Of a DNA stretch of 64,000 bases, positions 2,579 to 59,169 are shown in pieces. The notes below the pieces were generated by a model, which was given only the letters and a program-made list of their open reading frames with translations, searched no databases and had not been told where the DNA came from. How positions within the stretch are numbered: the stretch's first letter is position 1; every line of letters starts with the position of its first letter. Source of the DNA: Rugalucina vietnamica (lineage: Eukaryota; Mollusca; Bivalvia; Lucinida; Lucinidae); NCBI GenBank assembly GCA_964017185.1, contig OZ024869.1, forward strand, positions 2,192,501 to 2,256,500, in the 5' to 3' direction. Made by a program: the position numbers and the translations under genes.

Positions 2579-3359
2579 AATTATGACCATGATCAACCAA
2601 GAAAGGCATTATTTTTCCTTCCTAGACAAAAGCATGTTTTGAATACACCACAGACTGTCAGTCTTACAATTAAATGCTGAACAACAAAAACATCCATTTC
2701 ACTTTACCTTTCTTTTATTTTTCTTCATAACAAATCAAAGACATAATCCTCTTTTCTCATCAACAACTACAAGTCAATCAACTCATCAGACACTTGGTTA
2801 TCTATCATCACACAGTTGACCAAGACATGATATACCCCACCCCCTATAGATCCAGATAAAGATAGAAGCAGGTGGCTCTATGTTCCAGACCAAAAATGAT
2901 CTATACAGTCATTAGAGAAATGATAGGTTTCCAATATGCTACAGTTTGAGAATGTCTGTCTTCCAGGATTCCAACCAGGTGCCCTCCGACACAAACTGAG
3001 AATCATAGTTTTACCACAGAAGATGTAAGTTGAAGATTTATCCTGTGGACACTGAACATCCTGATCAGCTGTGTTTCGTTAGCTTCTGTAATGCAAGACA
3101 CTGTTTAGTTCTCTGAATCTTTATTTCCGCATCATGCAAAGCACAGGTTTCTTCATGATGCCGCTCCAATAAGAAAAAGTGGTTTGCTTGCATGTAAATC
3201 ATCAATAAGTTCTTAAGTAGCCGAAGCAATTGAAAAAGAATCAATTAGGATCTTTCCTACCAACAGGAAACAATCTTCCAGAAAAGAACAAATACTTACA
3301 TGCCTTAATGTCTCATTTCTAGCTGGGTAAAGAAATAAAAATAATCAACCAGTACCACA
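2579..3359. other. Intergenic, nothing recognised
   Basis: AT-rich sequence between a family A MITE and the 28-bp minisatellite. No coding or RNA signal was recognised. Confidence 0.5.
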
Positions 3360-4530: not shown

Positions 4531-5002
4531 GTCAACTCTACAGATCTGAACCTAAGAAATAGTAATAAAGTTCTAATAAGGTAATCAAAGACAGATTTAG
4601 CGAATAAAAAGCACCAAATCACACCAAATCCAACTTCTACAACCAAATATTATCGAGAAGCCTGATAATCAGAGAATACTGTTTGGTCTCTTGATACTCT
4701 TGAGGCGAATATAGTTACAAGTTCATTAAGTTAGGCTTATTGGCCGTTTCATGTATGCCAGAATGGTGCACGTCTGTGGGGAGACATAGAGAAGTCTTAA
4801 TCATATATAGACTCAATTTGTCTAGGAATTTCAAGAGAAGAGAATCAAATAGAGGGTCACAATCACAATCAGGCAGAATAATTATGCCTTAAAAAGGAAA
4901 TAATGCCATCAACTGGCCAGTGCAGTTATAGCACTGTGATTTTTTCAAAGAAAACAAGACTGAAAGTAGTGTTCCCGACTAACTAACATGAGATTTAGTA
5001 AA
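4531..5002. other. Intergenic, nothing recognised
   Basis: AT-rich, no open frame or repeat recognised. Confidence 0.45.
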
Positions 5003-5232
5003 TGAGCCGCCCCATGGGAAAACCAACAATCTGCATAGGCGAAAACAAAGGCGCAGATCAGCTTCGCGGTAACCGCGAAGCTGATCAGCGCCTTTGTTTT
5101 CGCTACTCGGATAGTACAATATTCCTCCTCTACTTAACTTCAAAATTTCAAGCTTCTAGCCTGCTTCTGTAGCTGTACAGGCCGGTTTGTGTCAGTCCTG
5201 TTCAGAAAGTGGTTTTTCCATGAGGTGGCTCA
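5003..5232 (+). mobile_element. Family A hairpin MITE, copy 3
   Basis: TGAGCC/GGCTCA ends and AA on both flanks. Perfect GATCAGCTTCGCGGT palindrome. Asymmetric segment (GGATAGTACAATATTCCTCC onward) follows the hairpin, so plus orientation. Confidence 0.85.
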
Positions 5233-6083
5233 AATATCTCAGAAATTGAATTCTATGACCACTAATCCACCACAGTTTCAGCTCCAGAAACCATGACATT
5301 AAATTTGTGGTTTAGTCTCTTTTTTAACATCACCATTTTAAACCTCATTTCGGTCAATTAGAGTCTGAAATTTCTAAAGATTTCCCAAAATTAACAGCTC
5401 AAACTTTTGTTGGCACAGAGTTTCGACATGAATGTCAACTATTCGACTGACATGACCGGCATAAATGCCCGAAGTAGTTAAGTCTGTTAAAACTAATTTA
5501 CAAATTGAAAGTGTGAGTGAGAATTTAATAGAACACTAATTTAACACGCCACAGTTGTATAAACTTCAATAAAAATCTCTCGCTGACAGCTGAATGCACG
5601 TTCATCAATACGATGATTTGCTCTTGTAGGGGTCCCAACATCAGTCGACAATGCGTAGCAAATATAGTAACAATACACTACCAATCAATAACTGGGGGCT
5701 CGATAAACACTAGGACATCTCAGAGGCATGACAACGCACGCACCGAGTTGAAATAAAAGATATTTCACTTAAAAGGCTAATGATAATTACCAAGCACACA
5801 TTCAAAATCTATCAATCGCCGATCACAAGGGATTTCTTTGTTACGGTGTTGACATTATTGTTTGCGGCATTAGCTCGGGAGATTTGGAAATTGCGTCACA
5901 CAAAGTTGCAATACATTCCTAAGGAGAAAGTGGTTTAACAGCCTCTTTGGAACACAAGTCACGTAAAGGTGAATGGAATTCAATTTCACTCACTGGTGCA
6001 GAAGTTGGTCGATGTTTTAACCAAATTGTATAAATCTAGCATCGCCAGCATCAGACAGCATCAGACACTGAGTCAACAGTGTA
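5233..6083. other. Intergenic, nothing recognised
   Basis: Slightly more CpG than the surroundings (GACATGACCGGC near 5450, AATACGATG near 5608), but no gene model is supported. Confidence 0.4.
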
Positions 6084-6325
6084 CATCAGGAAAGCATGTC
6101 CGTGTAATGTGCACCCCCTCAAACCCCACTTTTATATAGCAAAACTGGGGTATGCAGGGGTATACTTTTCTTATTTTTGCTCCAAAACTTAGATTGTGGG
6201 TACTCGTTAGAACTGCCTCGGTGAGGCAAAAATAAGAAAAATAGCAAAACTTTTCTACTGAAAATTTACATTTTTTAAAACTTTAAAAAAATCTCTGTAT
6301 ATTGCATGGGCATATTTTCGTGATG
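6084..6325 (+). mobile_element. Family B MITE, copy 2
   Basis: Terminal inverted repeats CATCAGGAAAGCATGTCCG and GCATATTTTCGTGATG. CCCCACTTTTATATAGC and GGGGTATGCAGGGGTATAC follow the left end. The central palindrome is shortened: after GCCTCGGTGAGGC the sequence goes straight to AAAAATAAG, so the outer part of the second arm is gone. Flanks GTA and AGA do not form a duplication. Confidence 0.8.
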
Positions 6326-8051
6326 AGATAGAAGCCTACAGTGAATGTATGAGTAAAGTTGGGTGCTTAGACAAGCCAGAATTGGCTCAAAATTTGGCTA
6401 AAATCGGACATGGCTCAAATGAGCTAACATTGGACTTTGCTCAAAATGGGCTTGCACCCAGATGAATCAGTGTCTGCTTCCATGATGAAGTTCAAAACTG
6501 AGCCCAATGCTGTAATGAGTTGGAAAATGTATGAAAAAAAAAATACTATCAAAACTCACTTATCCTCCAATTAACCAGTGCATAGCGAAATTTTAACAGT
6601 AGTGACAGTGAATTGTACATGGTCAAATTAGTTTAATTTTCAACAAATAAGAAAATAATGGCATTTGTGAGAAACCAAATTGGAGCAATTTCCCTAAAGT
6701 GTTTCTATAATTGAATTCAACTGACATGATTGGTTAATTAAGTCATGTGACCAATGAAAAAATCCATTGTTATATATATCAGATAGAGCATGGACCGGTC
6801 ATGTGAAGCCACATCTAGAACTTGAACAGGTCGGGCACAACCAGGTCAGAAGCTATATAAAACGGAAGTGGATATAATTTTGTTAATTTAGATCAATATT
6901 AAACTGATTTGATAGGAACACCCAACTATAATGCCAAAACACCAAATGAGCAGTGCTTTTGATGAATGTATATTGTATAAACAGTTTTCCTCATGATGTG
7001 ACACATTTTTTTTCCATACATGGAACTTATTGACAAGTCGTCATGATATGAATATCGATAAAACAGTAATTTGTTAAGGCAATCAGCAAAATTATGAGAT
7101 CATATTGTAGCACAGCGTAAAATTCTATGCTTGGGCTAATTATCTAGTGATTTTGAAAAGTGCAAACAATGAGTATTTAGATGTTCGTTATCAGAAACAT
7201 CAATAGTTGCTTTATAAAGCTGCAAATTGTTGTCTGTCAGGTCGCCCTGTGAGGTTTATACTGCTCAAACTTAACACGCCAATGCATTATACAACATTTT
7301 AGCAGAAAAATTTGACTGTTCGCTCAAAAAATGTTTGCTTTTTCTTATTTTTGAGCAAAACACTTGTTAGAACCCCCGTCAGTTTATATACCCCTAGTCC
7401 CTCTTCTGCTGATTTCCAATCTTCAAAGCCGACCTGTGCAATGCTACATATAGGCTCAAAAGATAACTATGCTAAAGAAACTTATGTCATAGTATCGGCT
7501 GTGCAAAAGTGATGCTTATATAGGCTGATTTGCTTAAATTTACATGTTACATAATATGTGTCTTGTTGCTGCTTATGTTATTATATATTATATAACCTGT
7601 GCTATATAAATTTGAAATTTCCTTACTTTAATTCTTATTAAAAATCTTAAAAGAAAACTTTATTGTGAAAATTATATTATTAAAAAGAGAAAATCTAAAG
7701 AAATTTCACTGAATGAATCAGAGAAACTTTTGATCGTAAAACGCGCGAACCGTAACACCATAAAATGGCCGATTAATGAGTATCTAGTAATAATTGCAAG
7801 CCATGAATAACTAAACACCTTCACATCATTGGCATGGATTTCGTGACTGTGCTGGGATGGCTTCAATATACCCAGGATCAGAAGACACTGAGCCTGACAG
7901 GTAATGATTAGGGAAAATTTATGGCCGATTCAGGGGCTCAAACCCCTCATTATTGGGCACGAAATCTTGATCAAATTTCGGGCATCAAAATTTAACAATG
8001 TTTGACTTGAACTTTCATTTTCACAGCAAATAAACACACTAATACACAAAT
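6326..8051. other. Intergenic, with a possible eroded family B piece
   Basis: AT-rich. Around 7276-7375 short stretches (GCTTTTTCTTATTTTTGAGC, ACACTTGTTAGAACCCC) resemble the middle of family B and may be a badly decayed copy. The rest shows nothing. The 66-residue frame at 7312-7512 overlaps this piece and is not a credible gene. Confidence 0.35.
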
Positions 8052-17106: not shown

Positions 17107-17927
17107 GTCTTTGGAAGAGCCTCTGGAAGATGGGTCTGTCCAGTTACAGGCTAGCTAAAATCAGTTTCCTGAGCTAAAGCTTTTCCAAACATATGTGCTC
17201 ATGGTAGTGTGTACAGGTATTTGTAGTTACATGTTGATCTGACCTATGTGCTGTTTTTTCTAGCTGTATTTTGCATTTAAACTACAGCAGTTTATCTGAT
17301 AACAAAGCTTAACTTTAGTGCACACAATTGCAACTTGATGTCTTTATTAAAGTCTCATCATCAGAAAACCTTACTCTTGGGTTGTTACCAAGATGTAAAA
17401 TCTAAAATGTTAGTTATGAAGCAGAGAAAAATCCAAATTCACCTTTAACCAATGAATGTAATGAAAAACAAAGACACAGGTGAGCCAACATGGTAGCACA
17501 GCTCATCTGCACCTTTGTTTTAAACATACATGTACATGCAAAAACAAGGTTAATAGAAAAAGGCCACTCATAAACCAGAAGCATGCTAGGGTCATAGGGT
17601 TAAAAGCAATATTTTCTTTATCAAAATCATAAAATTCAAATCTTTTGAAATTGCTCAAAATTTATTTCTACAATTTTGGTCATAATCTGTTATTGACTCA
17701 ACAATTTACTGAAATAAATCTTGTCATAAATGCTTTGCCTTCTCTTTAAGGTAGCCAGAAATATTAAATTCTAGTTTAATTTGACTTCTTCCTTTCATGT
17801 ATCAGACATAGGTCACAGGTTCAATCCATTGGCATGATAAATTTCATCTAAAATGGTATATAATTCTTCTGTCTTGGCTGTAACAGTCTGGCAATAATTA
17901 TACATACTCTCTAAGGTAATTGATAAA
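17107..17927. other. Intergenic with family A core relic
   Basis: At 17461-17522 AAACAAAGACACAGGTGAGC and CAGCTCATCTGCACCTTTG resemble the middle of a family A element with a degraded stem. No ends are recognisable. Otherwise nothing. Confidence 0.4.
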
Positions 17928-18347
17928 TAAAACAGGTATACCATGACCAAAGGAGAGCTTTCTCTCAAAGGATAAGACAGGTATACCATGACCAAATTTA
18001 AATGAGAGCTTACTATCAATGGATAAGACTGGTATACCAAGACAAAAGGAGCTTACTATCAATGGATAAGACAGGTATACCATGCCCAAGAAAAGCTTAC
18101 CTCCAATGGATAAGACAGGGCTGGTATACCATGACAAAAGGAGAACTTACTATCAGTGGATAAGACAGGTACAGGTATATCATGACCAAAGGAGAGCTTA
18201 CTCTCAATAGATAAGACTGGTATACCATGACCAAAGGGGCTTACTATCAATGGATAAGACTGGTATACCATGACCAAAGGAGAGCTTACTCTCAATAGAT
18301 AAGGCTGGTATACCATTACCAAAAGAGAGTTTACCATCAATGGATAA
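17928..18347. repeat. 45-bp minisatellite, left part
   Basis: About nine imperfect units of GGTATACCATGACCAAAGG plus AGAGCTTACTATCAATGG plus ATAAGACA. Some units have lost 4-10 bases. The array continues beyond the LINE at 21599, so the two parts were one array before insertion. Confidence 0.9.
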
Positions 18348-21300
18348 GACAATGACAATGACAATGACAATAGTTTATTCATTTTTGAAGGCCTCCGGCC
18401 CATAACATATATCAATATATATAAACAACTTGAATTATGTCCCACATTGTGTTGTTTTGTATTTTTAAATAAACAAGACGACGTTAGATACAAAATTAAA
18501 GCCAGTTAAATAGTTTATGAAACGACTAAAATATCTCATATGACACGAATGTGCTCCCTTATCTAAAACCATTTATTGTTGTTTTGCCATGCTTTGCACG
18601 TTTTTCCTTCAAATTTCAACAAAATGTCTAAAAACAGCGTGTTTCAATTTATGTAGATTTTATACGAATAAATGCGATCTTTTGAATTGAAGATGTGATC
18701 AAAAAGGAATAATATAGTGTCTGTGAGATATTCACTTCGTTCACAGTGATAGGAATTTCTCGATCGATATATTTGACGTGAATCTGCCAATTTTCACAGC
18801 TGTTTTACAGGTAAGCCAATGATAGAAATAGTTTTGACGTCACACTGAGCGCATTTGCTGTTGCATTTATTGAATCTATGGTGGCACATTGATAGTCATA
18901 AAGATTTACGTGTTATACATATTTTGCATATCCGCTCAGTGTTTCATCTTATTTCTTATCCGTCGTAGATCGAATTTCTTAGTTCAAATGCATCGACAAG
19001 AAACTTTGCAATAGAAAATATGCTTTCCACATCATTTGATTTCATGATTGAATAAAACTTATGTACAGATATTTGTCTTTGCCACATTGGTTTAAAGTGA
19101 ATATTTCTTAGATCTTGATACAGTGGACATACCATGAAAAAATGAAAAATGTCTTCAATGGTATAAACATTTCTGTCTAAACAAAATGGACAAAATCTAT
19201 ACTCCCTATCGATATCATTATGTCGCCCCTTTTCAATTTGCAATTTATGGCTAGAACATCTAAAATTTGCCAATGTTTTCCTACAAACAAAACTTAAATC
19301 AATGAATAAGTATTTCTCTACGTCGAGCTGCGTTTTAAAATATTTGTAATGGTCCGCTTTTGATGAATTATTTATGCTACTTCTCCAGTTTTGGAGAGAA
19401 ATGTCTTTAATGCGCTGCGTAAAATTTGACAAAAATGCGTTTATATCTCCAACTTCGTCTGCAATCCAGGCGTAACCAAAGCCATATTCGAACAATAATT
19501 TCTTAATATACGTTGCCCACGTTATTTTATCGGCTTCCGTTAACGATCTTAGCATTCGATAACACTGGCGGGGATATCGATAATTTGGCATTCGCGTTAG
19601 TTTTATCCAGTATTTGATGGGTTGAACCATATAAGAAACGGCTAAAGGGAGACGACCGCATTCGCCCAGTACGAAATTGTCAGCTGCATTTTGATGTAGT
19701 CCAACGTATCTTTTACAAAATTTGGTTTGAATTTTTTCTATTTCTTCGGAATATTCATAGCCCCAAATTTCCGCCCCGTACATCGCGATCGGTTTTACCA
19801 TTGAATCAAAAAGTTTGAATGCGTCTGACGGACTGAAAAAGCCGAATTGTTTCTGAAAACGGAAAATACTTGAAACTGCTTTTTGCGCTTGCATCGCGAG
19901 TAATTCTTTGGTTTTTGTCCAAATCAGCCTTGGTGTAAAATAGATTCCCAAATACTTGTACATCGAAACTATTTCAATTTCCGTTCTTTGATAATACCAT
20001 TTTTCTATATGCTTTGTTATTCCACCATTTCTGAAAACAATAATTTTAGTTTTTGCGAGGTTTAATGTCATTCCAACCGATTTGCAAAATTTTTCGACCA
20101 AATTAATTAACCTTTGTAATCTTATAACAGTGTCAGAAAAGCAAGAAATATCATCTGCAAACATAAACGCCATTACATCCTCAATTTCATTTGAAATAAA
20201 TACACCCCTGTCGGATTCTGATCTCAAATATGCTATTAAATCGTTGATGAACAGTGAAAAAATAATCGGTGAGCTCAAGCAGCCTTGTCTCGTTCCGATG
20301 CTGCATTCGAAAAACCGAGACAGCGAATTATTTGTTTTGACACATGATTTGAGCTGGCTATACATTGATTGAAAAATTTTGATAAATTTGCTATCTTCAT
20401 TTATACCTTTCCGTTGTAATGAATCCCATAACTTGTTGTGTGCAATACTGTCGAATGCTCGACGAAAGTCTATGAATATGCAGTAAAATCTGCCCTTCGA
20501 ATGACACAAGTATTTTTGAACTAACGCTTGTAGAGAGAAAATATTATCTGTAGTTGAATAACCCTTTCGGAACCCAGCTTGGGACTCGTCAACTACCCCA
20601 TTTTCCTCAGCCCAGTTTTGCAATCTTGATGTTAGGATACCCGTAAATATTTTGCTTATGCTATTAATGAGAGATATACCTCGATAATTTTCAGGATTTG
20701 TTTGTAAGCCGCTCCTATGCAAGGGACATATAATATTTTTGCACCAATCTTCTGGCAACACTCCGCTGTCGTATATTTGATTAAATAAAGCGTCAAGGAA
20801 AGGCAGTATATCATTTTGCATACTTTTAAACATTTCTATGCAAATTCCATCCGGTCCTGGTGATCGATTGGAATTGATAGATTTTATACTAGATAAGATT
20901 TCTGCATTACTTATAGGTCTGTCTAAATCGTTGCAATCGTGATCTTGCGTAATGTTTTGTAAAAGGTGCTCATTTTCAATGTCAACATCCATATTTAAGA
21001 GATTTTGAAAGTATCTGACCCAGTCGTCCGGGCTTATATGGTCCTTAAGTGGTGATTTACCATTGCAGTTTTGTTTTATTATTTTCCAGTAACTACGCGG
21101 ATTTCGACATGCAGTTAACAGTTCAGATCGTTTTTCTTTTTCATATTTAAGACGTTTCGATCGACATACATTTTTAAACCTTGCCCTAGCTGCCTTGTAA
21201 TTATGTAAATCTAGACCGCTGTTAGTACGGCGAAATTTTCGGATTAAATCTGTCTTTTTCAGTTTAGCTGTTTGACATTCGTTATCCCACCACGGTGGTT

Positions 21301-21598
21301 GTTTGTTTCGACTATTATTTGCCTTTTTGTACTTAACTTGCATACATTTGCCTGCTTCTTTAAATAACTTGATAAAATCTGTGAGATACGATAATGCGGG
21401 CTTATTTTCTCTTGTCATTTTATTTTGAAAGTGCGAAAATATTTCAGAAAAATGTTGCACAAAACTATTCTTTAAATTCTCGTTCCATTTAAATCGTGTC
21501 CATTTATTTTCATTTAAAATAAATTCGAAAGGGTCAGTGTTTTGTACTGTTTTGGACAATTCAAGTGTACAGTGTAATGGAAAATGGTCTGAGAAATC
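18348..21598 (-). mobile_element. 5'-truncated LINE inserted in a minisatellite
   Basis: Minus-strand non-LTR retrotransposon of about 3.25 kb. The 3' end is at 18348-18372 and consists of about four ATTGTC repeats, a short-tandem-repeat tail rather than poly(A). About 600 bp of 3' UTR separate this from the stop at 18956. The 5' end is cut just upstream of the endonuclease SDH motif at about 21598, the usual result of incomplete reverse transcription. On either side the 45-bp minisatellite resumes in phase (GGATAAGAC before, TGGTATACC after), so almost no target sequence was lost. I see no clear target duplication. Confidence 0.9.
18956..21598 (-). pseudogene. LINE endonuclease (end) + reverse transcriptase ORF2, truncated
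   Basis: The frame stays open for about 880 codons after the 5' break. It begins at the last endonuclease motif (SDHFPL), followed by an RT domain with SPGPDG, NYRGISLINSISKI, GFRKGYSTTDNIF, FIDFRRAFDS (motif A), GTRQGCLSSP and FADD (motif C, both catalytic aspartates kept). A C-terminal CPFC...EDIFHFF..C cluster is a likely zinc-binding domain. The reading frame runs on upstream to an ATG at 21922, but the first ~108 residues (15-residue repeats) come from the minisatellite and do not belong to the element. Intact RT suggests a fairly recent insertion. The layout (APE-type endonuclease, RT, Cys/His end, microsatellite tail) fits the CR1/Jockey/I side of the LINE tree; I cannot fix the clade. 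Confidence 0.88.
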
Positions 21599-22716
21599 TG
21601 GTATACCATGACCAAAGGAGAGCTTACTATCAATGGATAAGACTGGTATACCATGAGCAAAGGAGTGCTTACTCTCAATAGATGACAGGTATACCATGAC
21701 CAAAGGAGAGTGTACTCTCAATAGATAAGACAGGTATACCATGACCAAAGGAGAGCGCACTCTCAACAGATAGGACAGGTACACCATGACCAGAGGAGAA
21801 CTTACTCTAAATGGATAAGACATGCATATTGTGAACAAAGGAGAGCTTACTATCAATGGATAAGACTGGTTTACCATGACCAAAGGAGAGCTCATTCTCA
21901 ATAGATTAAGACAGGTACACAATGACCAATGGAGAACATACTCTGGTATATAGTGACCAAAGGAGAGCTTACTATCAATGGATAAGACAGGGCTGCTGTA
22001 CCATGACCAAAGGTGACCTTACTCTCAATAGATAAGACAGGTATACCATGACCAAAGGAGTGTTTATTATCAATATATAAGACAGGTATACCATGACCAA
22101 AGGAGAGCTTATTTTCAATGGATGACTGGTATACCATAACCAAGGGAGAACTTACTCTCAATAGATAAGTCAGGTATACCATGACCAAGGGAGAACATGC
22201 TCTCAATAGATAAGACAGGTATACCATGACCAAGGGAGAGCTTACTCTCAATAGATAAGACAGGTACACCATGACCAAAGGTGAGCTTACTCTCAATGGT
22301 TAAGACAGGTACACCATGACCAAAGGTGAGCTTACTCTCAATAGATAAGACAGGTATACCATGACCAAAGGAGTGTTTATTATCAATAGATAAGACAGGT
22401 ATACCATGACCAAAGGAGAGCTTATTCTCAATGGATAAGACTGGTATACCATGAATGAGGGAAAATTTATTATGAATAGATAACACAGGTATACCATGAC
22501 CAAAGAAGACCTTACTCTCAATAGATAAGACTGGTATACCACGACCAAAGGAGAGCTTTATCTCAATGGATAAGACAGGTATACCATGACCAAAGGAGAG
22601 CTTACTATCAATGGATAAGACAGGTACACCATGACCAAAGGAGAGCTTACTATCAATGGATAAGACAGGTATACCATGAACAAAGAGCTTACTCTCAATG
22701 GATAAGACTGGTGTAT
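21599..22716. repeat. 45-bp minisatellite, right part
   Basis: About 25 units of the array that starts at 17928. As 45 is a multiple of 3 and the unit lacks stops in several minus-strand frames, it produces open frames of up to 144 residues built on 15-residue repeats (SIESKLSFGHGIPVL-like, and a second frame with SSPLVMVYLSYLLRV-like). These are consequences of the period, not evidence of a gene. Confidence 0.9.
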
Positions 22717-33217: not shown

Positions 33218-33486
33218 GGAGGCCCCCGTGGCCAAGTGGTTAAGAGCGCTGATATTTCATTACTGCACTTAACCATTCGATCATCTCACCGCTGTGTCTG
33301 GTGTGGGTTCGAGCCCCGCTCTGGCCACATGTGAGACAAGCAAAGTTCTGCTTGCGGGTGTGTCAGGTGGTTTTTCTCGGGGTTCGCCCGTTTTCGCCCC
33401 ACCTACTGATTGGCACCGTCTTATATGAGCAGAAATAATCTTGAAAGGGATGTTAAACTGAATAAAAAAAATAAATAAATAAATAA
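33218..33486 (+). mobile_element. tRNA-derived SINE S2, complete, with target duplication
   Basis: The head GGCCCCCGTGGCCAAGTGG (A box TGGCCAAGTGG) and GGTTCGAGCCCC (B box) are tRNA-like and resemble Ser/Leu-type heads. The body contains GCTTGCGGGTGTGTCAGGTG and CGCCCCACCTACTGATTGG and ends in (AAAT)n. Perfect 12-bp target duplication AAAATGACCAGC at 33206-33217 and 33487-33498. The A-to-B box interval is longer than in a tRNA, as ~40 extra bases lie between the boxes. Confidence 0.92.
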
Positions 33487-36213: not shown

Positions 36214-36250
36214 CTGAATCAACCTATGGAAACGGTGTATTAGAAAAACG

Positions 36251-36315
36251 GTGAATCAACGGGGGTTAATCGGAAAAATGTGAACCATCGGGCGAGGTGT
36301 CGGTGACACATCGGG
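36251..36315 (+). promoter_or_regulatory. Subterminal iterons, left end
   Basis: Three copies of GTGANNCAWCGGG: 36251 (GTGAATCAACGGG), 36280 (GTGAACCATCGGG) and 36303 (GTGACACATCGGG), 29 and 23 bp apart, all in one orientation. A further cluster in the same orientation lies at 38507, 38528 and 38550. Repeated subterminal motifs of this kind usually bind a transposase; that role is inferred. Confidence 0.7.
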
Positions 36316-36490
36316 ATTTACAATGGCGACACGGTACGTAGTTTTAATTTTCTTTTTGTTTTGTTCCGACATGGCTGGGTGACGTTGTATGTCAAAATTC
36401 TGTTTGCTGCAGGAGCTGTAGAAATCATTATTGTTCTTTATTATGTAAACAGTCTGTAAACTAGAAATTGGCTGCAAGCAAGGCTTTCAG

Positions 36491-38286
36491 TATACCCCCC
36501 GCAAAATTATCTAAGGCTAATAACTTCCTTTAAGTCAAACATGCAAAACATTTGTCAAAAATATCTTTTCAGCATTATAATCCTTCATGAAAATCCTCCG
36601 TATGTCTGACTCATGTCTGTAAGGTATTAAATAATATACTGAAAGCTCAGGGAGTAAAATTATTGTTGATTTCACTGTACACTGTTGATCATTATTTATC
36701 ATGAGAAATGGTCAAAAACTGGCTATGCTAAAAAAAAGCTGTAAATTTGTCAAAAATAAATTATTCAGCATAAGAATTATTCATGCACATCTGAAATATA
36801 TCTGGAACAAGTGTGCAAAGAATTCAAATGAAACAATGAAAGCACTAGGAGGACTTGATTTCATAAAGTATGCTCTACCAGCCGTATTGTATATTAGCGA
36901 TGGTTGAAAAATGTCTAAGTTGAAAAATGCTGTAAATTTGTCAAAAAATATTTTTTCACCAATAAAATTCTTTATGCACATCTTCAACATGTCTGTAACA
37001 TGTCTGCAAAGTATTGAAAAGAATTACTGAAAGCCCCAGGAGGAGTTGGATTTCACAAAGTATGTACTATCAACCATAATTGAATATAAGCAGAAATGGT
37101 CAAAATTGGCTAAGTTTAAAAAGCTGTAAATTTGTCAAAACTAAAATTTTCAGCATAAAAATTCTTCATGCACATCTTCAATATATCTGGAACAAATCTG
37201 CAAAGAATTAAAAAGAAACAATGAAAGCCCTAGGAGGAGTTGATTTCACAAAGTATGCACTTCCATCCATTATTGTATGTAAGCAATAGTCGAAAAATGG
37301 CTAAGTTTAAAAATGCTGTAAATTTGTCAAAAACTATTTTTTCAGCATTATAATTCTTCATGCACATCTTCAATATGTCTGTAACATGTCTGCAAAGTAC
37401 TGAAAAGAAATACTGAAAGCCCTAGGAGGAGTTGATTTCACAAAGTATGTATGTAAGCAATAGTCGAAAAATGCCAAAGTTAAAAAATGCTGTAAATTTG
37501 TCAAAAAATATTTTTTCAGCATTATAATTCTTCATGCACATCTTCAATATGTCTATAACATGTCTGCAAAGTACTGAAAAGAAATACTGAAAGCCCTAGG
37601 AGGAGTTGATTTCACAACGTATGTATGTAAGCAATAGTCGAAAAATGGCAAAGTTAAAAAATGCTGTAAATTTGTCAAAAATTATTTTTTCAGCATTATA
37701 ATTCTTCATGCACATCTTCAATATGTCTGTAACATGTCTGCAAAGTACTGAAAAGAAACACTGAAAGCCCTAGGAGGAGTTGATTTCACAAAGTATGCAC
37801 TACCAACCATTATTGAATATAAGCAATTATAGAAAATTTGCTAAGTTAAAAATGCTGTAAATTTGTCAAAAATGATTTTTTCAGCATCACAATTGTTCAT
37901 GCACATCTGCAATATATCTGAAACATATCAGCAAAATATTAAAAGGAAACATTGAAAGCTGTAAGAGGAGTTGATTTCACAAAGTATGTACTTTCAGTAC
38001 TATGGCAAACATGTTATAGGAAGACTTAAAAAGTCCCATAACTCTTGCAATACTGACCCTTTGGCCCCTAAATTCATACCACACATGTATTGTCTGATGG
38101 TGCAAGTGTGGTGAAAATTTGAAACAGATCAGGCAAAAGCTACTCAAGTTATTCAGCAAAGATGTCCAAATGTTGACGGAATGACGGAATGACGGAATGA
38201 CGGAATCACGGAATGACGGAATCACGGAATCACGGACAGGCTGAAAACAGTATACCCCCCTAAAACTTCGTTTTGCGGGGGGTATA
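36491..38286. mobile_element. TATACCCCCC-ended element with ~190-bp satellite
   Basis: It starts TATACCCCCCGCAAAA and ends with the inverse TTTTGCGGGGGGTATA, which itself forms a terminal hairpin with TATACCCCCCTAAAAC at 38252. The inside is dominated by the 36530-37990 tandem satellite. The right part (38010-38235) contains AAAAAGTCCCATAACTC, a TTGCAATACTGACCC stretch and a 9-bp microsatellite (TGACGGAAT)n. Layout common in bivalve genomes; no coding capacity. It sits inside the 4.84-kb element. Confidence 0.75.
36530..37990. repeat. ~175-193-bp tandem satellite (about 8 units)
   Basis: GCTGTAAATTTGTCAAAAA recurs at about 36738, 36930, 37122, 37315, 37488, 37666 and 37854, with an earlier diverged unit near 36540. 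Each unit has TTTTTCAGCAT, TTCATGCACATCTTC, AACATGTCTGCAAAGTA, GCCCTAGGAGGAGTTGATTT. Three central units are shorter because they lack the TATGCACTACCAACCATTAT piece. Confidence 0.9.
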
Positions 38287-38506
38287 ATAAATATTCCAAG
38301 AAACGCGTGATTGTGCGCCCCATTTTAGAGGGCATGCCTTTCAAGGTCACGAAAACATTTTCGTTTGATTTTCTAGTAAAAGAAATGGACCAAGAAGGTC
38401 ACGTTGGTAATTGCAAATGAATAATAGTATACTGGAAAATTCCCACAAAAAATAAAATCTCGCCAAGCATTGCAAAGGGATTTAATGCTAGGTGCATTTA
38501 CATAAT

Positions 38507-38562
38507 GTGAGGCATCGGGCAAGTTGTGTGAGACAACGGGGCGAATTTTGTGAGTCATCGGG
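38507..38562 (+). promoter_or_regulatory. Internal iteron cluster, left half
   Basis: GTGAGGCATCGGG (38507), GTGAGACAACGGG (38528) and GTGAGTCATCGGG (38550), spaced 21-22 bp (two helical turns). Same orientation and consensus as the left-TIR iterons. Confidence 0.65.
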
Positions 38563-38914
38563 CAATCAAAACTTATTGCATTTATTTCCGATTATAAACA
38601 CTCTAGAGCTATTTTTGATCAAGGTAATTTCATATTCCGTGTCATCTTCGACCCGGTAATTTCATATTCCGCATCATCTTCGACCCTTTCTTGTTGGGAA
38701 ATTAAAGTGCTAGACCGACAAGTGTAAAACGCTAGCGTTCACCTGAATCATTGCCAGTGTCAGACGCACTTGTGTGAAAATCGTTCCCAAACGGATTGCG
38801 GTGTTGAGGATAATAAGCTTATGCGCATGTTTTTCAGAAACGACCAGGGTGTGCGCTTATTGGAGCATGTGCGCTAATTAGAACGAATACGGTATTTACA
38901 GTTAGAACGTGCTG

Positions 38915-39195
38915 AAAACGTAGTTCGCGCGTGGTATGAACTGCTTGGTCTTTGTGAGGACGTAGCAAGGACGTAGTAGAAACGGGATGAACTTGGTGAG
39001 CGCGTATTGAGGACGTAGTGGAAACGTGAAGGACGTAGTAAGGACGTGGTGCGGACGTTATAAGGACGTGGCGGGGACGTAGTTAGGACGTAGTGGGAAC
39101 TTAGAAATCCGAAATTGTTTCATTTTGACCCCGTCCTCGCCACGTTCTGGAATTTTTAGAACGTGGTAAGGACGTGGTGAGAACGTGGTCCAGTG
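38915..39195. repeat. Short GGACGTAGTA-type minisatellite
   Basis: Imperfect repeats of a 10-12-bp unit (AAGGACGTAGT, AGGACGTGGTG, GGGACGTAGTT) running from about 38920 to 39190 with one inverted stretch (CCCCGTCCTCGCCACGTTC) near 39128. CpG-rich. Confidence 0.75.
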
Positions 39196-39600
39196 TAGAC
39201 GTAACATAAGTGAGAGTTACAGTTATACGCAAGCACATGACGTAGATACGTATGCGCATTACTGTAACTCGTGCTGTTTGGCCTTGATACTCGAGTTACT
39301 TTTTGCGATCTCGCCACGGCGAGAGCGCATATATAATTGAACAGGGCTGGAATCTTGTTGTAAATCGACCACACTTCCGGTCGTACTTGATTGGACAAGG
39401 CAGCTTCGATTGGGTCACACTAAATAGCGCATGCCGGCTCGGGTATGAAAGCTCACGTTGAACCGAGCTGTCAGAGTCTTTTCGGTCTGTGGTTATCGCC
39501 GTGAATTTATACGTGGTCATACAGTGAAATTAGTGCTGAGAGATCGCAAGCGTTTTGGAAACGCTTATACTTGTGTTACTCGGATAGTCATGTCGAAAAT
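39196..39600 (+). other. CpG-rich stretch with TATATAA box
   Basis: High CpG in contrast to surroundings, GAGAGCGCATATATAATTG at 39325, then CGATTGGGTCACACTAAATA, GAACCGAGCTGTCAGAGTC and AGTGCTGAGAGATCGCAAGC. This could be a promoter or leader of a former autonomous element, or an LTR remnant. I see no coding sequence after it: the next open frame (39571-39768, 65 residues) is unrecognised. Confidence 0.35.
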
Positions 39601-39769
39601 CCTCATTTTTCCCATGAGAAAATAAATGTCCAGTCGTGTGAACTGAGCAACAAAAGGAGACCGAACCTAAAGTTAACATCAATTAATACCGTCAGGTATA
39701 TTGTAAAGCTAATCAAACTTGGAAACCTGTCGAAATGTCATGTTTTAAGAATCAGTAATTATTATTGAT

Positions 39770-40050
39770 ATTGTTATTATTATTATTATTATTATTATTG
39801 ATTAAGTTTTACGTGCCTTAAAAGCCAATTATTTCACTCATTAACAAATCAGTAGGTGGGGCGAAAATAGGAGTACTCCAGGAAAAAGCACCTGACACAC
39901 CTGCAAGCAGAACTTTACTTGTCCCACATGTGACCCGTGCGGGGCTCGAACCCTACACGGCGCTCGTGGGGATCGAACCCAGGACCTCTCGCTCCAGAGT
40001 GACAGTCCGACGCTCTACCGCTTCAGCTACCGCGCTCTACTAGCGGGGGC
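39770..40050 (-). mobile_element. Composite tRNA-derived SINE S3 with two B boxes
   Basis: Read on the minus strand it begins with a tRNA-like head (GCGGTAGAGCGTCGGACTG, then GGTCCTGGGTTCGATCCCC), followed by a second B-box unit (GGGTTCGAGCCCCGC) and then the S2 body (GTGTGTCAGGTG, CGCCCCACCTACTGATT). The tail is (ATT/AAT)n at 39771-39800. Thus a different tRNA head was joined onto the B box and body of S2. Confidence 0.85.
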
Positions 40051-40550
40051 TGTGACTGGTATCTTTGTCCCTAGATCTCACTAGAAACGTTAAGCAATCA
40101 TCTGGCACCTCAGCGGTAGACATCAGAGGGGGCATTTCAGGCCCTGATAATTTTAGGAAAGAAGCTATCCCAATAGATACTGTTCCATGTTATTTCTAAA
40201 GATTGGACCTGCGTTTACTGTTATAATTTTCCCAGTCTTCAAATCGGCAACGGAAGAAATTTAAGAATTGGAGACAGTATCTTTTCCAATTATTTCTTAC
40301 ACGTTTTCATTTGCTTCAGCTTCATTTAACCAGCGAAAAAAAAACTATATTTATGCGAACAGTGCGATATGACGGACGCTGCGGACGAGGAACGTCCGAG
40401 TTCTCATCACTGCCGGCGATTAACGTGTGTTTATAGCATCCGTAATTGGGATAGATATGATCCCACTCAAACTAAAAGTTAAAAAACAACAATCATGTAC
40501 TGTCTAAAATGAAGAAAATAAAGTTTTATTCCATCAACATTTGGTTGCTC

Positions 40551-40612
40551 CCCGGCGACACACACAACTTGCCCGGAGACTCACCAAATAATCAATCACC
40601 CGGCTGAATCTC
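40551..40612 (-). promoter_or_regulatory. Internal iteron cluster, right half
   Basis: CCCGGCGACACAC (40551), CCCGGAGACTCAC (40572) and CCCGGCTGAATCTC (40599) are diverged reverse complements of GTGANNCAWCGGG, 21 and 27 bp apart. They mirror the 38507 cluster. Confidence 0.5.
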
Positions 40613-40960
40613 GATTTTCCCAGTCTTTTTTACAAATTTTCTGAAGGTTGATAATCAGGAGCTTACTTTTCTATATTCACCAATCTGAATTAAGGTTGTT
40701 TACATTCGTAATTCGATGTAAGCATAAAAAATAAACAAAAAATACAACCGAAAGTCAACTGAAATGTTTGAGTAGTAAAATGGGGCGCACTGTGGCGATT
40801 AAACAAAATACATTTTCAACAATTTTAGGGTTTCCGGGGCTGCATCAAAGACCCTTACAGCTCCTGCAAGTGTTCGATTTGCTTTTATTTACTGCAGTAT
40901 TTTTAGCTTTCGCTTCAAAATAGAAGTAAACAAACAACATACCTTTTATTAAGTGCAAAT

Positions 40961-41025
40961 CCCGATGTGTCACCGACACCTCGCCCGATGGTTCACATTT
41001 TTCCGATTAACCCCCGTTGATTCAC
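40961..41025 (-). promoter_or_regulatory. Subterminal iterons, right end
   Basis: CCCGATGTGTCAC (40961), CCCGATGGTTCAC (40984) and CCCGTTGATTCAC (41013), the mirror of the left TIR set. Confidence 0.7.
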
Positions 41026-41221
41026 CGTTTTTCTAATACACCGTTTCCATAGGTTGCTGAATATCAGGCACAAATTTTGACTTTGTCATTAAGTAGGTCA
41101 AGGTCATGACTTTGTCACAAAGTAGGTCAAGGTCAATCTGAAATTTACATTTTAATGAACAAATTCCATTCACAGTTCACATGTCAAATCCATCAGCTTT
41201 TCAGACTCTTTCCACATTATT

Positions 41222-46540: not shown

Positions 46541-47788
46541 GAACTCATGCTGTCTACACTGTCCTGATTATGAACTCATGCTGTCTACACTGTCCTGATT
46601 ACCTATTACAATATTAGGAACTCATGTCACTTACACTGTCCTGATTACCTATTACAGTATTAGAACTAATGCTGTCTACTGTCTACACTGTCCTGATTAC
46701 CTATTACAGTATTAGAACTCATGCTTTCTACTGTCTACACTGTCCTGATTACCTATTACAGTATTAGAACTCATGCTGTCTACTGCCTATACTGTCCTGA
46801 TTACCTATTACAGTATTAGGGAATCATGCTGTCTACACTGTCCTGATTACATGCTATAGAATTAGGAATGCATCCTGATTACATATTGCAGTATAAGGAA
46901 CTCATGTCTCTTACACTGTCCTGATTACCTATTACAGTATTAGAACTCATGCTGTCTACTGCCTACACTGTCCTGATTACCTATTACAGTATTAGGAACT
47001 CATGCTGTCTACACTGTCCTGATTATCTATTGCAGTATTAGGAACTCATGTCACTTTCACTGCCCTGATTACCTATTACAGTATTAGGGAATCATGCTGT
47101 CTACACTGTCCTGATTACCTATTACAGTATTAGAACTCATGCTGTCTACACTGTCCTGATTACGGAACTCATGCTGTCTACACTGTCCTGATTACCTATT
47201 ACAGTATTATAACTCATGCTGTCTACACTGTCCTGATTACCTATTACAGTATTATAACTCATGCTGTCTACACTGTCCTGATTACATATTACAGTATCAG
47301 GAACTCATGCTGTCTACACTGTCCTGATTACCTATTACAGTATTAGGAAATCATGCTGTCTACAAATTACCTATTACAGTATTAGGAAATCATGCTGTCT
47401 ACACTGTCCTGATTACCTATTACAGTATTAGAACTCATGCTGTCTACACTGTCCTGATTACCTATTACAGTATTAGGAACTCATGCTGTCTACACTTTTC
47501 TGATTACATATTACAGTATCAGGAACTCATGCTGTCTACACTGTCCTGATTACCAATTACAGTATTAAGAAATCATGCTGTCTACACTGTCCTGATAACC
47601 TATTACAGTATTAGGAAATCATGCTGTCTACACTGTCCTGATTACCTATTACAGTATTAGGAACTCATGCTGTCTACACTTTTCTGATTACCTATTACAG
47701 TATCAGGAACTCATGCTGTCTACACTGTCCTGATTACCTATTACAGTATTAGGAAATCATGCTGTCTACACTGTCCTGATTACCTATT
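46541..47788. repeat. 46-bp minisatellite, block 1
   Basis: About 27 units of GGAACTCATGCTGTCTACAC plus TGTCCTGATTACCTATTACA plus GTATTA. Some units are short: GTCCTGATTATGAACTC (46560) joins two units with 16 bases lost. Confidence 0.93.
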
Positions 47789-50280: not shown

Positions 50281-50472
50281 TGATTACCTGTTACTATATT
50301 AGGAACTCATGCTACCTACACTACCCTAATTACCTGTTAAAGTCTAAGAAACACATATGACATAGATTACCTGTTACAGCATTTGGAACTCATGTAATCT
50401 ACACTGTCTTGATTCCCTGTACAGTATTAGGAACTCATGCTGTCTACACTGCCCCGATAGCCTGTTACAGGA
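50281..50472. repeat. 46-bp minisatellite, block 2 (diverged)
   Basis: Degenerate units such as TTAGGAACTCATGCTACCTA and GGAACTCATGTAATCTACAC. This is an edge block. It ends in CCTGTTACAGGA, the left copy of the target duplication of the next SINE. Confidence 0.75.
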
Positions 50473-50724
50473 TTTTTTTTTTTTTTTGATTCAGTTTTAT
50501 GTCCCTTTCAAGCTTTTTCACTCATATCGAGATGAATCAATGGGTAGGTAGGGCGAAAACCGGAGTACCCGGGGAAAAACCACCTGACACACCCGCAAGC
50601 AGAACATGGCTTGTCTCACATATGAATTCGTGCCCCGTGCGAGGCGCGAACCCACATCGGTGAGATGATCGAATGATCAAGAGCACTGAAGTCAGCGACC
50701 TTAACCACTCGGCCACGGGGGCCG
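50473..50724 (-). mobile_element. tRNA-derived SINE S2 inserted in minisatellite
   Basis: Minus-strand S2: T-run tail at left, head (complement of CACTCGGCCACGGGGGCC) at right. Target duplication CCTGTTACAGGA (50461-50472) and CCTGTTACATGA (50725-50736), one mismatch, both minisatellite sequence. Confidence 0.9.
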
Positions 50725-50736
50725 CCTGTTACATGA

Positions 50737-51400
50737 TTAGGAACTCATGTCATCTACACTGTCTTCATTACTTATAATCACAGTGTTAGGGACTTATGCT
50801 GTCTACACTGTCCTGATTACCTATTACAGTATTAGGAACTCATGTCACTTTCACTGCCCTGATTACCTATTATAGTATAAGGAACTCATGCTGTCTACAC
50901 TGTCCTGATTACCTATTACAGTATTAGGAACTCATGCTGTCTACAATATCCTAATTACCTATTACAATATTAGGAACTCATGCTGTCTACACTGTCCTGA
51001 TTACCCATTACAATATTAGGAACTCATGCTGTCTACACTGTCCTTATTACCTATTACAGTATTAGGAACTCATGTCACTTTCACTGCCCTGATTACCTAT
51101 TATAGTATAAGGAACTCATGCTGTCTACACTGTCCTGATTACCTATTACAGTATTAGGAACTCATGCTGTCTACAATATCCTAATTACCTATTACAATAT
51201 TAGGAACTCATGCTGTCTACACTGTCCTTATTACCTATTACAGTATTAGGAACTCATGTCACTTTCACTGCCCTGATTACCTATTATAGTATAAGGAACT
51301 TGTGCTGTCTACACTGTCCTGATCACCTATTACAGTATTAGGAAATCATGCTGTCTACACTGTCCTGATTACCTATTACAGTATTAGGAACTCATGTCAC
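50737..51400. repeat. 46-bp minisatellite, block 3 with higher-order repeat
   Basis: About 14 units. A five-unit block is repeated: the series CTCATGTCACTTTCACTGCC, TTATAGTATAAGG, ACAATATCCTAATTACC occurs at about 50836-50960 and again at 51067-51195, with a further partial set from 51248. Confidence 0.9.
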
Positions 51401-51403
51401 TTA

Positions 51404-52771: not shown

Positions 52772-53240
52772 AAACTATTACAGTATTAGGAACTCATGCT
52801 GTCCACACTGTCCTGATTACCTATTACAGTATTAGGAACTCATGCTGTCTACACTGTCCTAATTACCTATTACAATATTAGGAACTCATGCTGTCTACAC
52901 TGTCCTAATTACCTATTACAGTATTAGGAACTCATGCTGTCTACACTGTCCTAATTACCTATTACAATATTAGGAACTCATGCTGTCTACACTGTCCTAA
53001 TTACCTATTACAGTATTAGGAACTCATGCTGTCTACACTGTCCTAATTACCTATTACAGTATTAGGAACTCATGCTGTCTACACTGTCCTGATTACCTAT
53101 TACAGTATTAGGAACTCATGCTGTCTACACTGTCCTTATTACCTATTATAGTGTAAGGAACTTATGCTGTCTACACTCTCTTGATTACCTATTACAGTAT
53201 TAGGAACTCATTGCTGTCTACACTGTCCTAATTACCTATT
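52772..53240. repeat. 46-bp minisatellite, block 4
   Basis: About 10 very uniform units alternating CCTGATTACC and CCTAATTACC variants. Ends in AATTACCTATT, the left target duplication of the LINE. Confidence 0.92.
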
Positions 53241-56200
53241 TCAGGTCAGGTCAGTTTAACTGCTACTGTAACATGTAATCAGTACTACCTGTTGTCATGC
53301 GGTGCAGATGGGGCTCGTTAGCCTTGGAAGGCAACTCATCTAGGAGTTAAGCTAGTTCTCTACACAAAAATCTAGCTGGGCAGGGGGAACTCATTAGTCT
53401 TGGTTGACAGTCCTCCTAGGAGTTTACAGGTCTCTAAACAAAACCTAAGGAAGGGTAGATGGAGCTCTTCAGCTGTGGCCAGCAATTCATCTGGGAGAAG
53501 GAAACTCCAAAATCAAACCTGTGTGTCTGGATATGCCTAGTCCAGATATGCAAAGACTGTTTCGGTAGATGGAGCGGAAGAAATCACCTGATTCAACGGT
53601 TCAGAAAGCGATACAGCAACATGTTGTGGAACATGCAAAGCGTGACAAGGCACTAAAGATGTTACGGTCATCCACTGCATCCAAACCCAACTCCAGACGT
53701 CTTGACCTGTGTCTTGCCTCTGGGCGCAGCTGGGCGAGGACTAGAGAGTGAGGTTGACGTTGCGCACCTCTTCCTCACTATAATCCAATTTCATAGCGCA
53801 TGTCATCTTATTTCTCAACACACAAGCACTTGCACACACAACAATTTCATCACACTTGCACCCACATACCTACAAAGTCCTGTGGCGATGGGCGAGTGGT
53901 GAAGCAGCAGGTGTAGGACACACTGGGAGCTGTAGTTGCAGACCTGCACACAGGCGGCTCAGTTCTAATGGTCGCTTTCTGTGAGGAGAAGCAGTAAGCA
54001 GAATTCGGCAGTCGGCTGAGCGACTGAGCAGACCTATTTAGGACCGCACTGCTCACCCCCGTAGCATGGGGAAGGGGCTAGAAAAGGTGCCCTAAACAAT
54101 TGCCTGCTTCAAACCCCCTGGCTGGTTAACCGCGATCAGCGGGGATCCCCTTAAGCGGTCGAAATACAAAGAAAAAAGCTAGAGTAATTCCCTTACGGAT
54201 TGGCGCATGGAATGTGCGTACTTTAATGGACAATGCTGAGTCAGATAGACCACAGCGTAGAACGGCCCTTGTGGGCAGAGAACTTGGGAGGTATGATATA
54301 CAGATAGCTGCATTGAGTGAGACTCGGTTCGCAGATGTTGGGGAGATCAAAGAAGTTGGTGCTGGATACACCTTCTTCTGGAGTGGACGCAAAAGTGAAG
54401 AGAGGCGTGAAGCAGGAGTTGGCTTTGCCATCAAAACAGAACTTGTTGGTAAGCTGTCAGGATTGCCAAAAGGCATTAATGACCGTCTAATGACATTGAG
54501 ACTTCCTCTGTCAGGCAATAAACATGCAACTATTGTCAGTGCATGCTTATGCACCCACAATGACCAATCCAGATGAGGTCAAGGACAAGTTCTATGATGA
54601 CCTAGACAATGTTATTTCTGCAACACCCCGCACAGACAAGCTTATCCTTCTTGGCGACTTTAATGCCAGAGTGGGTACAGACCACCAGACCTGGGAAGGA
54701 GTTATAGGTCCAGAAGGGGTTGGAAAGTGCAACAGCAATGGTCTCTTGCTTCTCAGGAAGTGTGCTGAACATGACCTTCTAATCACCAACACAGTCTTCC
54801 GTCTACCTAATAGGAACAAAACATCCTGGATGCATCCCCGTTCCAAACACTGGCATCTCATAGACTATGTCATAGTGCGGAGAACAGACAGGCAGGATGT
54901 TAAAGTGACAAAGACTATGTGTGGTGCAGACTGCTGGACAGATCATAGACTGGTTGTCAGCAAACTCAACCTAAGAATACAGCCTGCGAGGCGACCTCAA
55001 GGCAAGAAAGCTCCTAAGAGACTGGATGTCTCAAAGCTGAATAAAGACAGCATGAGACAAGATTTCTTAACAGACATTTGCAACCAACTGGATGCAATGA
55101 ATCTCAGTTCAGAGGACCCCGAAGAAAACTGGACAGTCTTCCATAAAACAGTTCTTTCTTCAGCTGCAAGCACCTTAGGCCATCCATCTCGCAAACATCA
55201 AGACTGGTTTGATGAGAATGATGACGAAATTCAGAGGCTTCTTGAAGAAAAGCACCGATTGCACAAGGCACATCAAGATGATACTAGCTCAGTATCAAAG
55301 AAAGCAGCCTACAGCAACATTTGTAAGACAGTCCAGACCAAGCTTAGGGACATGCAAGATTCCTGGCTGAGGAAGAAAACAGAAGAAATTCAGTCTTTTG
55401 CGGATAGAAAGGACATGAAGAAATTTCATGATGCACTGAAAACCATTTATGGTCCAAAGAGTTCTGGAGCCACCACATTGCTCAGTGCAGATGGAAACAC
55501 TCTTCTCACAGATAAAGAAGCTATCTTGGAAAGGTGGGCAGAACACTTCAGTAGTGTGCTTAATCGACCATCAAGCATCAATGAGGATGCAATCGACAGA
55601 CTTCCACAGATAGAGTGCAATGTTCTGTTAGATGAATTTCCTACCGTTACGGAAACAAGAAAAGCAGTTCAACAACTATCATCTGGCAAAGCCCCAGGTG
55701 CAGATGCAATTCCTGCCGAAGTTTACAAGGCTGGGGGGCTACCCATGGCAGAGAAACTGACAGAGTTGTTTAACTGTATGTGGAGAAAGGAGGCTATCCC
55801 ACAAGAATTTAAGGATGCCTCCATAATCCACCTATACAAGCAGAAAGGAAATCCTCAAGTCTGTGACAATCACAGAGGCATCTCCCTCCTATCAATTGCT
55901 GGGAAGATACTTGCAAAAATTCTGTTGAATCGTCTGAATGTTCATCTTGATCAGACGGGACTTATCCCAGAAAGTCAATGTGGATTCAGAAAAGACAGAG
56001 GGACAATAGACATGATATTCACAGCAAGACAGCTTCAGGAGAAATGCCAAGAACAGAATGTAGATCTATACATGACGTTTGTTGACCTCACCAAAGCTTT
56101 TGACACTGTTAGTCGTGATGGACTCTGGAAAATCATGGCCAAGTTTGGCTGTCCAATGGTGCGGCAGTTTCATGATGGCATGCAGGCACGTGTGCAAAAT

Positions 56201-57431: not shown

Positions 57432-58270
57432 AATTACCTATTACAGCATTAGGAACTTATGCTGTCTACACTGTCCTGATTACCTATTACAGTATTAGGA
57501 ACTTATTGCTGTCTACACTGTCCTGATTACCTATTACAGTTTTTGGAACTTGTGTCACTTACACTGTCCTGATTACCTATTACAGTATTAGGAACTAATA
57601 GCTGCCTACACTGTCCTGATAACCTATTACAGAATTAGGAATTCATGTCACTTACACTTTCTTGATTAGCTATTACAGTATTAGGAACTCATGCTGTCTA
57701 CACTGTCCTGATTACCTATTACAGTATTAGGAACTCATGTTGTCTACACTGTCCTTATTACCTATTATAGTATAAGGAACTTATGCTGTCTCCACTGTCC
57801 TGATTATCTATTACAGTATTAGGAACTCATTGCTGTCTACACTGCCCTGATTACCTATTACAGTATTAGGAACTCATGCTGTCTACACTGTCCTTATTAC
57901 CTATTATAGTATAAGGAACTTATGCTGTCTACGCTGTCCTGATTACCTATTACAGTATTAGAAACTGATTGCTGTCTACACTGTCCTTATTACCTATTAC
58001 AGTATTAGGAACTCATGTTCTCTACACTGTCCTTATTACCTATTATAGTATAAGGAACTTATGCTGTCTACACTGTCCTGATTACCTACTACAGTATTAG
58101 GAACTCATTGCTGTCTACACTGTCCTTATTACCTATTATAGTATAAGGAACTTATGCTGTCTACACTGTCTTGATTACCTATTACAGTATTAGGAACTCA
58201 TGCTGTTTACACTGTCCTTATTATCTATTACAGTATTAGGAACTCATGCTGTCTTAACACTATCCTGATT
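57432..58270. repeat. 46-bp minisatellite, block 5
   Basis: About 18 units, with TTATAGTATAAGGAACTTAT and ACTCATTGCTGTC variants that are rare in blocks 1 and 4. The array fades out at CTATCCTGATTACATGTACA. Confidence 0.92.
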
Positions 58271-59169
58271 ACATGTACATGTACCTCTAATATTGATGAA
58301 CTTATATGATCTTCCATATCCCATTACCTGTACTAGAACAAAAACCTGTCTCTTGAGACCCAACCTTCTACCTTATGGCCCAGCTTCTACATCTACATTA
58401 TCACAATACTATAAAAGAATGTTAAGGTAGACTTATTTTAATGTATGTATTCAGTAGCTGTGACTTGATGACTTCATCATCAGTGACTTTATGAGCCTAA
58501 CAACCCTAACAGTACTGTCAAACTATTTCTTTGATACCAGCTAGGGCTACATCATAAATGGTAAGGTGATACCATGACAGTGTGGGTGATACCTAGTTAT
58601 ACAGGATTTATACCTGGGTGGGGTCAGGGGTCAGAGTCTAACCAGGTGTGCCTGTCCCAGGTAGCACTCCATCATGTCAAAAGGTTACTTAATTATTGCC
58701 TACTGAATACCTGGCATAAGTAACTATAAATTCCCTAAATAGTTATAGTGAAAAAAGTGAATTGAAAACTTTCCAGTAAGTTCAATGGATAGAAAATTAC
58801 GGAATCCCAGGATGTTCATTCGCCTTTGGTGTTCAGATCATTTAGACATGTACTGTATTTTTTACCATAATGTAAAAACTTTTAGCAGCATTAAGCTGTC
58901 AAAGGATGCACTGTTACATGACCTTATAGGAAAAATGCAAATTCAGACTGGTTATCTAAAAGGTCTGAAAAAAAGAAAAATGGTTGTCATTCTGATGAAA
59001 AAGCACAAGTGCATTACACAATCCTTGAACATGACTGCATCATATCATTTATCATGCATTTTGAAATTATTCAACATTTCGCATTTACAGCTGATTAGCC
59101 AGCACAGGTCCCTGAACAGCTAGCTAATGGTATTACCCTTAAAATAGCAGAACCTACTGTCTCTGAATA
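58271..59169. other. Intergenic, nothing recognised
   Basis: The 112-residue frame at 58785-59123 has no recognisable domain or bias and is not called. Confidence 0.45.

Follow-up and report, generated by a model that had tools for sequence, protein, structure and literature searches.

A 4,837-bp element at positions 36220 to 41056 of the window, a 64,000-nucleotide stretch of contig OZ024869.1 from the lucinid bivalve Rugalucina vietnamica, is, with a probability that we put at roughly 85%, one member of a young, non-autonomous family of cut-and-paste transposons that have terminal inverted repeats (TIRs) and are present in high copy number. Inverted ends are accompanied by target duplications at most independent insertions, and no transposase was recognized in the copies read. 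As mobile DNA the family is of an ordinary sort; it numbers a few hundred copies in the genome, and it has probably both moved and been excised. As found, it represents one more recently active non-autonomous family and a useful polymorphism marker.

The first 100 bases of the element match the reverse complement of its last 100 bases at 100 of 100 positions, with the first mismatch at base 101, and the termini read CAACC..GGTTG, so that the element starts with CA and finishes with TG. The hexamer CTGAAT directly borders both ends (Table 1), and the duplication cannot be read as 5 or 7 bp in this copy. A first-pass annotation of the sequence had noted both the matching 100-bp TIRs and the flanking CTGAAT, and both observations held. 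By simple arithmetic, six matching bases at two borders fixed in advance would arise by chance in about 1 of 4,096 cases. With so low a chance, and with the end pair recurring in the genome, the window element is real. A TIR longer than 100 bp was considered and rejected, as matching past base 100 is confined to islands (13 bp lying equally far in from both ends, 15 bp, and 35 bp at 80% identity). Shared 11-mers in a narrow band nevertheless numbered 13, whereas 100 letter shuffles averaged 0.08 and never gave more than 4. An older, decayed, longer inverted repeat is likely to extend past base 100, although our interpretation does not need one.

Family size, target duplications, and coding content

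The host genome searched comprises 1.09 Gb in 47 contigs, in which the terminal 24-mer of the element occurs 468 times (235 forward, 233 reverse). With the first 125 bases as the query, 523 candidate places were returned; scoring 40 of them yielded 42 matches, 40 at 100% identity and two of right-end type at 93%. We mapped the first 100 places of the terminal 24-mer, extending from C1 to C3:60.5 Mb, and 82 of these ends form 41 facing pairs, leaving 18 unpaired. Pair spacing ranges from 2,136 to 14,509 bp (median, 4,193 bp) and exceeds 5.5 kb in 15 of the 41 pairs, three of which measure 6,566 to 6,599 bp (C1:23962790-23969359, C1:78586690-78593255, and C2:12350028-12356626) and two of which measure 14.3 and 14.5 kb. 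These long pairs range from 6.1 to 14.5 kb and include C2:20995332-21009840. Twenty ten-kb stretches of the same genome were read along with the window copy, giving 21 copies. Both ends were present in each of the 20 other copies, 2.8 to 8.9 kb apart, with only one copy longer than 5.5 kb (L045, 8.9 kb). The end pairs in all 20 stretches and the pairing of most mapped ends rule out two solo repeats that happen to face each other.

The ends of the family are nearly identical among copies, and the recent activity that had been proposed from the window copy is supported. Among all 21 copies, two duplicates included, the left 241 bp differ by a mean of 0.45% (maximum, 1.2%), while the right ~980 bp differ by a mean of 1.05%. 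Older left ends, ~4 to 7% diverged, were found at two places in the genome (matching the first 16 bases but broken at bases 30 to 32), suggesting that the family has been mobile for some time. We also considered autonomous copies carrying other subterminal sequence and rejected them: the repeat's final 24 bases are nowhere in the genome followed by C or T, and the two places with the break at bases 30 to 32 are the older left ends of the family itself. Viral contigs searched with the first 20 bases gave no matches. As separate observations, two family copies lie in the same orientation with 63 bp between them at L039 4551-4813, and L041 has one flank in common with L039, which suggests recombination through the element.

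Setting aside two duplicates (L034, a duplicate of L033, and L041, which shares the flank with L039) leaves 19 independent insertions. At 16 of these, the element is flanked by a duplication of 4 to 6 bp, and the duplicated sequences are varied. The length is 5 bp at 14 insertions, 4 bp at one (L049), and 6 bp at one, the window copy; the remaining three (L033, L036, and L043) have no duplication. A+T content is 83% in the 14 five-bp duplications versus 63% in the window. The window copy is therefore the exception in duplication length, and its 6 bp are unfit for classifying the family. The first-pass annotation had taken these 6 bp as a class marker and had recommended checking the duplications at other copies. 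That check produced the predominantly 5-bp pattern, which is the outcome the annotation itself had named as contrary to its claim. The family thus provides a case of one copy's duplication length misleading classification.

Neither the window copy nor the 20 other copies read contained a recognized transposase. In the window copy, none of the 17 stop-to-stop frames of at least 60 amino acids scored over the curated Pfam cut-off. The other copies were surveyed through 31 frames of at least 90 amino acids in 19 copies, of which 19 were scanned and 12 were repeats of scanned frames. The only match over the cut-off was a reverse transcriptase inserted in L031 (E value, 1.8e-11). Matches below the cut-off, three in window frames (E values of 0.066 to 0.23) and three in other copies (0.078 to 0.082), were taken as chance. 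The earlier suggestion of a non-autonomous derivative lacking any Polinton gene is borne out insofar as no recognizable Polinton gene occurs in the copies read.

Several points weigh against a non-autonomous TIR transposon. Five of the 21 copies are without a clear duplication (L033, its duplicate L034, L036, L043, and L041, the last with 2 bp only). A small frame of 87 to 95 amino acids, at window positions 39505 to 39768, recurs in the family and may be a small gene: its 90- to 95-amino-acid version is open in 11 of 19 copies (e.g., L032:2460-2735) and reads IYTWSYSEISAERSQAF... in the copies, while the versions of the window and L032 have no Pfam match. Furthermore, no autonomous partner was found among the copies read. 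The 15 mapped pairs longer than 5.5 kb could hide such a partner, and "non-autonomous" here describes the copies read.

Candidate transposases

We searched the genome for genes of possible partner enzymes, scoring 150 of 199 candidates for the hAT dimerization domain, 86 of 155 for polymerase B, and 4 of 4 for RAG1. The distances of matches on C1-C3 to the 100 mapped ends were then compared, with parts of one polymerase B locus counted once. Among named enzymes, a hAT5-like or RAG/Transib-like one fits the ends and the duplication length best, and we rank hAT5-like first and RAG/Transib-like second. In the literature consulted, the groups that combine 5-bp duplications with ends of the CA..TG type are hAT5 and the Transib/RAG side of CMCT.

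A transposase of no described superfamily, or one of the MuDR, P, KDZ, or EnSpm/Chapaev type, comes close to an even chance. Among the published descriptions compared here, no group unites CAACC ends with a 100-bp repeat and 5-bp duplications, and the CMCT groups have CA..TG ends in most cases and duplications of 2 to 5 bp (PMC12730594). This mismatch, however, was judged from a limited set of descriptions, and no protein was seen.

Mobilization by a hAT5- or hAT6-type transposase is a tentative alternative, with odds clearly short of even. Elements of the hAT superfamily commonly have ends of the CA..TG type and repeated subterminal motifs, and the genome contains at least 116 hAT dimerization-domain matches. 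Conversely, a 100-bp terminal repeat is long for hAT, and the fifth base of CAACC departs from the hAT start, YARNG. The 21 hAT matches on C1-C3 among the scored candidates are all more than 30 kb from the mapped ends. The record for hAT includes families with 5-bp duplications and others with 6-bp ones (PMC12730594), and these are the lengths seen at 14 and 1 of our 19 insertions, respectively.

That a RAG1-like or Transib-like transposase mobilizes the family is doubtful. Targets of RAG and Transib are GC-leaning, in contrast to the 83% A+T of the five-bp duplications. The genome does carry RAG1-core matches (PF12940; best E value, 5e-79): one with a 782-amino-acid open frame at C9:34097107-34099008 (-) and two further ones at C11:21950802-21951692 and 21957960-21958850 (+), one of which has a stop. 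The distance test covers C1-C3 only. Protostome RAG-like elements are reported to have 5-bp duplications invariably, as at 14 of the 19 insertions here, and non-autonomous RAG-like elements are reported from the oyster P. imbricata (PMC7204232). The end consensus reported for them, CACTWMCAAACKTYKBB (PMC7204232), is not kept by the family, whose ends begin CAACCTATGG (CAACC...). It is likewise unlikely, though slightly less so, that the ends belong to a transposon group of an undescribed superfamily or are moved in trans by the intact-looking RAG1-like gene of the genome despite having no CAC heptamer. Should the partner enzyme prove RAG1-like or new, an active system could be tested directly in a single animal genome that holds hundreds of near-identical copies.

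A non-autonomous Polinton/Maverick, which the first-pass annotation had considered alongside Dada on the strength of the 6 bp, is very improbable: long inverted ends, the 6 bp of the window copy, the two mapped pairs spanning 14.3 and 14.5 kb, and polymerase B matches with long open frames in the genome (at least 111 matches in all) are compatible with it, but a 6-bp duplication occurs at only 1 of 19 insertions against 5 bp at 14, none of 10 distinct Polinton-type polymerase B loci on C1-C3 among the scored candidates comes within 30 kb of the 100 mapped ends (integrase was not searched for), and CAACC..GGTTG differs from the Polinton start. The Polinton target duplication is given as 6 bp (PMC10045372).

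Internal structure of the element and other repeats in the window

A frame consisting of the left 540 to 850 bp and the right 1.0 to 2.2 kb is common to the copies, at ~95 to 99% identity to the window copy, while their middles differ and some deletion junctions are common to several copies. Six copies of 3.74 to 3.77 kb (L032, L037, L038, L043, L046, and L049) have one internal layout, L039 and L040 have a second, and L035 and L047 have another. Different middles on a common frame, combined with common junctions, are what would result if internal deletions arose repeatedly and single forms were then amplified. Judging from these alignments, the copies probably derive from a longer parent through internal deletion and kept moving afterwards. 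The deletion junction of the window copy is also found in L031, with 1 of its 19 bases different. Twelve of these bases (TTGAGGATAATA) recur near base 1171 of L032, so the junction filler is probably family sequence. Small words are common to some deletion junctions, such as CTTG in L044, and may point to incomplete gap repair.

The nested insertion listed in Table 1 is absent from 20 of the 20 other copies read, and its borders have two bases (AA) in common with the empty site of another copy. Another insert, of ~5.2 kb with a tandem array of ~150-bp units, occupies element positions 1476 to 6641 from the left end of L045. Within the tRNA-like segment of the window copy, positions 39786 to 39958 match window positions 33301 to 33474 and 50474 to 50653, and positions 39959 to 40037 were scored as tRNA-Asp by ARAGORN. 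Since an overlapping interval (39913 to 40070) is present in all other copies compared, the segment was probably acquired before the family spread. At gathering score, Rfam gave no matches over the window and none in 14 of the 20 ten-kb stretches.

Counted from its left end, L032 has the motif GTGANNCANCGGG at 32, 61, and 84, with a second group at 463, 484, and 506; the opposite strand has it only at 61 and 84. The right subterminal cluster is without a full GTGANNCANCGGG motif. Spaced motif arrays of this kind are usual as transposase binding sites, and the GTGANNCANCGGG array is likely to be one. In the mechanism that we envisage for the family, a transposase made elsewhere would bind the GTGANNCANCGGG copies of the TIR and the subterminal cluster, pair both ends, and cut at CA..TG, and the cut ends would be joined to target strands staggered by 5 bp, or now and then by 4 or 6. 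After excision, incomplete gap repair may shrink and reshuffle the middles, and individual deletion forms would multiply afterwards.

Table 1. Features of the element and its borders, in window coordinates
Feature	Position	Strand	Basis or remark
Target duplication CTGAAT, left copy (6 bp; atypical of the family)	36214..36219	.	Sequence comparison
Left TIR, 100 bp, begins CAACCTATGG	36220..36319	+	Sequence comparison
GTGANNCANCGGG, three times within the left TIR	36251, 36280, 36303		Positions read from window sequence; motif scan on copy L032
Private nested insertion, ~1825 bp	36461..38285	.	174-194-bp tandem array, TGACGGAA microsatellite, TATACCCCCCGCAAAA near both ends
Left subterminal cluster: GTGAGGCATCGGG, GTGAGACAACGGG, GTGAGTCATCGGG	38507..38562	+	~460-520 bp from left end, nested insertion discounted
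19 bp at internal deletion junction	38798..38816	.	~1.95 kb of copy L039 missing here
Imperfect GGACGTAGTAA/GGACGTGG repeats, 11-bp based	38950..39189	.	Similar repeats mid-element in other copies
tRNA-like segment (short interspersed nuclear element type)	39786..40037	-	Repeat matches and ARAGORN
Right subterminal cluster	40550..40584	-	80% inverted match over 35 nt to 38507-38541
Right TIR, 100 bp, equal to the left one	40957..41056	-	Sequence comparison
Target duplication CTGAAT, right copy	41057..41062	.	Sequence comparison

Elsewhere in the window, one 46-bp tandem unit makes up separate arrays at 46541 to 47788, 50281 to 51403, 52775 to 53244, and 57433 to 58272, all within 12 kb. A 240-bp dispersed repeat at 1235 to 1475 recurs at ~14 further places on both strands, and frames over two of its copies share a recurring peptide with CENKGADQLRGNREADQRLCFRYTDS or a close form. 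Reverse transcriptases of the long interspersed nuclear element (LINE) type are among the long frames of the window, as read from the frames. One LINE-type frame (18956 to 22018, minus strand) has a 45-bp tandem repeat on both sides and partly inside it (17923 to 18351 and 21600 to 22712).

Comparison with known systems

Among systems with duplications near 4 to 6 bp, IS3EU/GingerRoot and Ginger1/2 resemble the family in that length, and the inverted ends of Ginger are similarly long. They differ in their termini, which are described as TA..TA (occasionally TG..CA) or TGTNR, versus CA..TG in the family. For IS3EU specifically, the termini are given as TA..TA (PMC10045372), to which CAACC..GGTTG does not conform. 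Dada is similar only in the 6 bp of the window copy, whereas the family has 100-bp TIRs, varied AT-rich insertion sites, and no Rfam match in the window; Dada-U6 families are described as being without TIRs, and Dada in general as lying inside small-RNA genes (PMC3706591). Polinton/Maverick shares long inverted ends with the family, as well as a size approached by the two mapped pairs near 14 kb, and is unlike it in having 6-bp rather than 5-bp duplications and other ends; no Polinton gene was found with the family, integrase not having been searched for. RAGL/Transib elements share with the family 5-bp duplications, a CA start, and known non-autonomous derivatives, and diverge from it in that the third base of the family is A rather than C, the CAC heptamer is missing from its ends, and its targets are AT-rich. 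Finally, the family departs from hAT5/hAT6 (Repbase groups) in its 100-bp repeat, its fifth terminal base, and the distance of more than 30 kb between the mapped ends and every scored hAT match on C1-C3, but these groups share with it duplications of 5 or 6 bp and ends of the CA..TG type.

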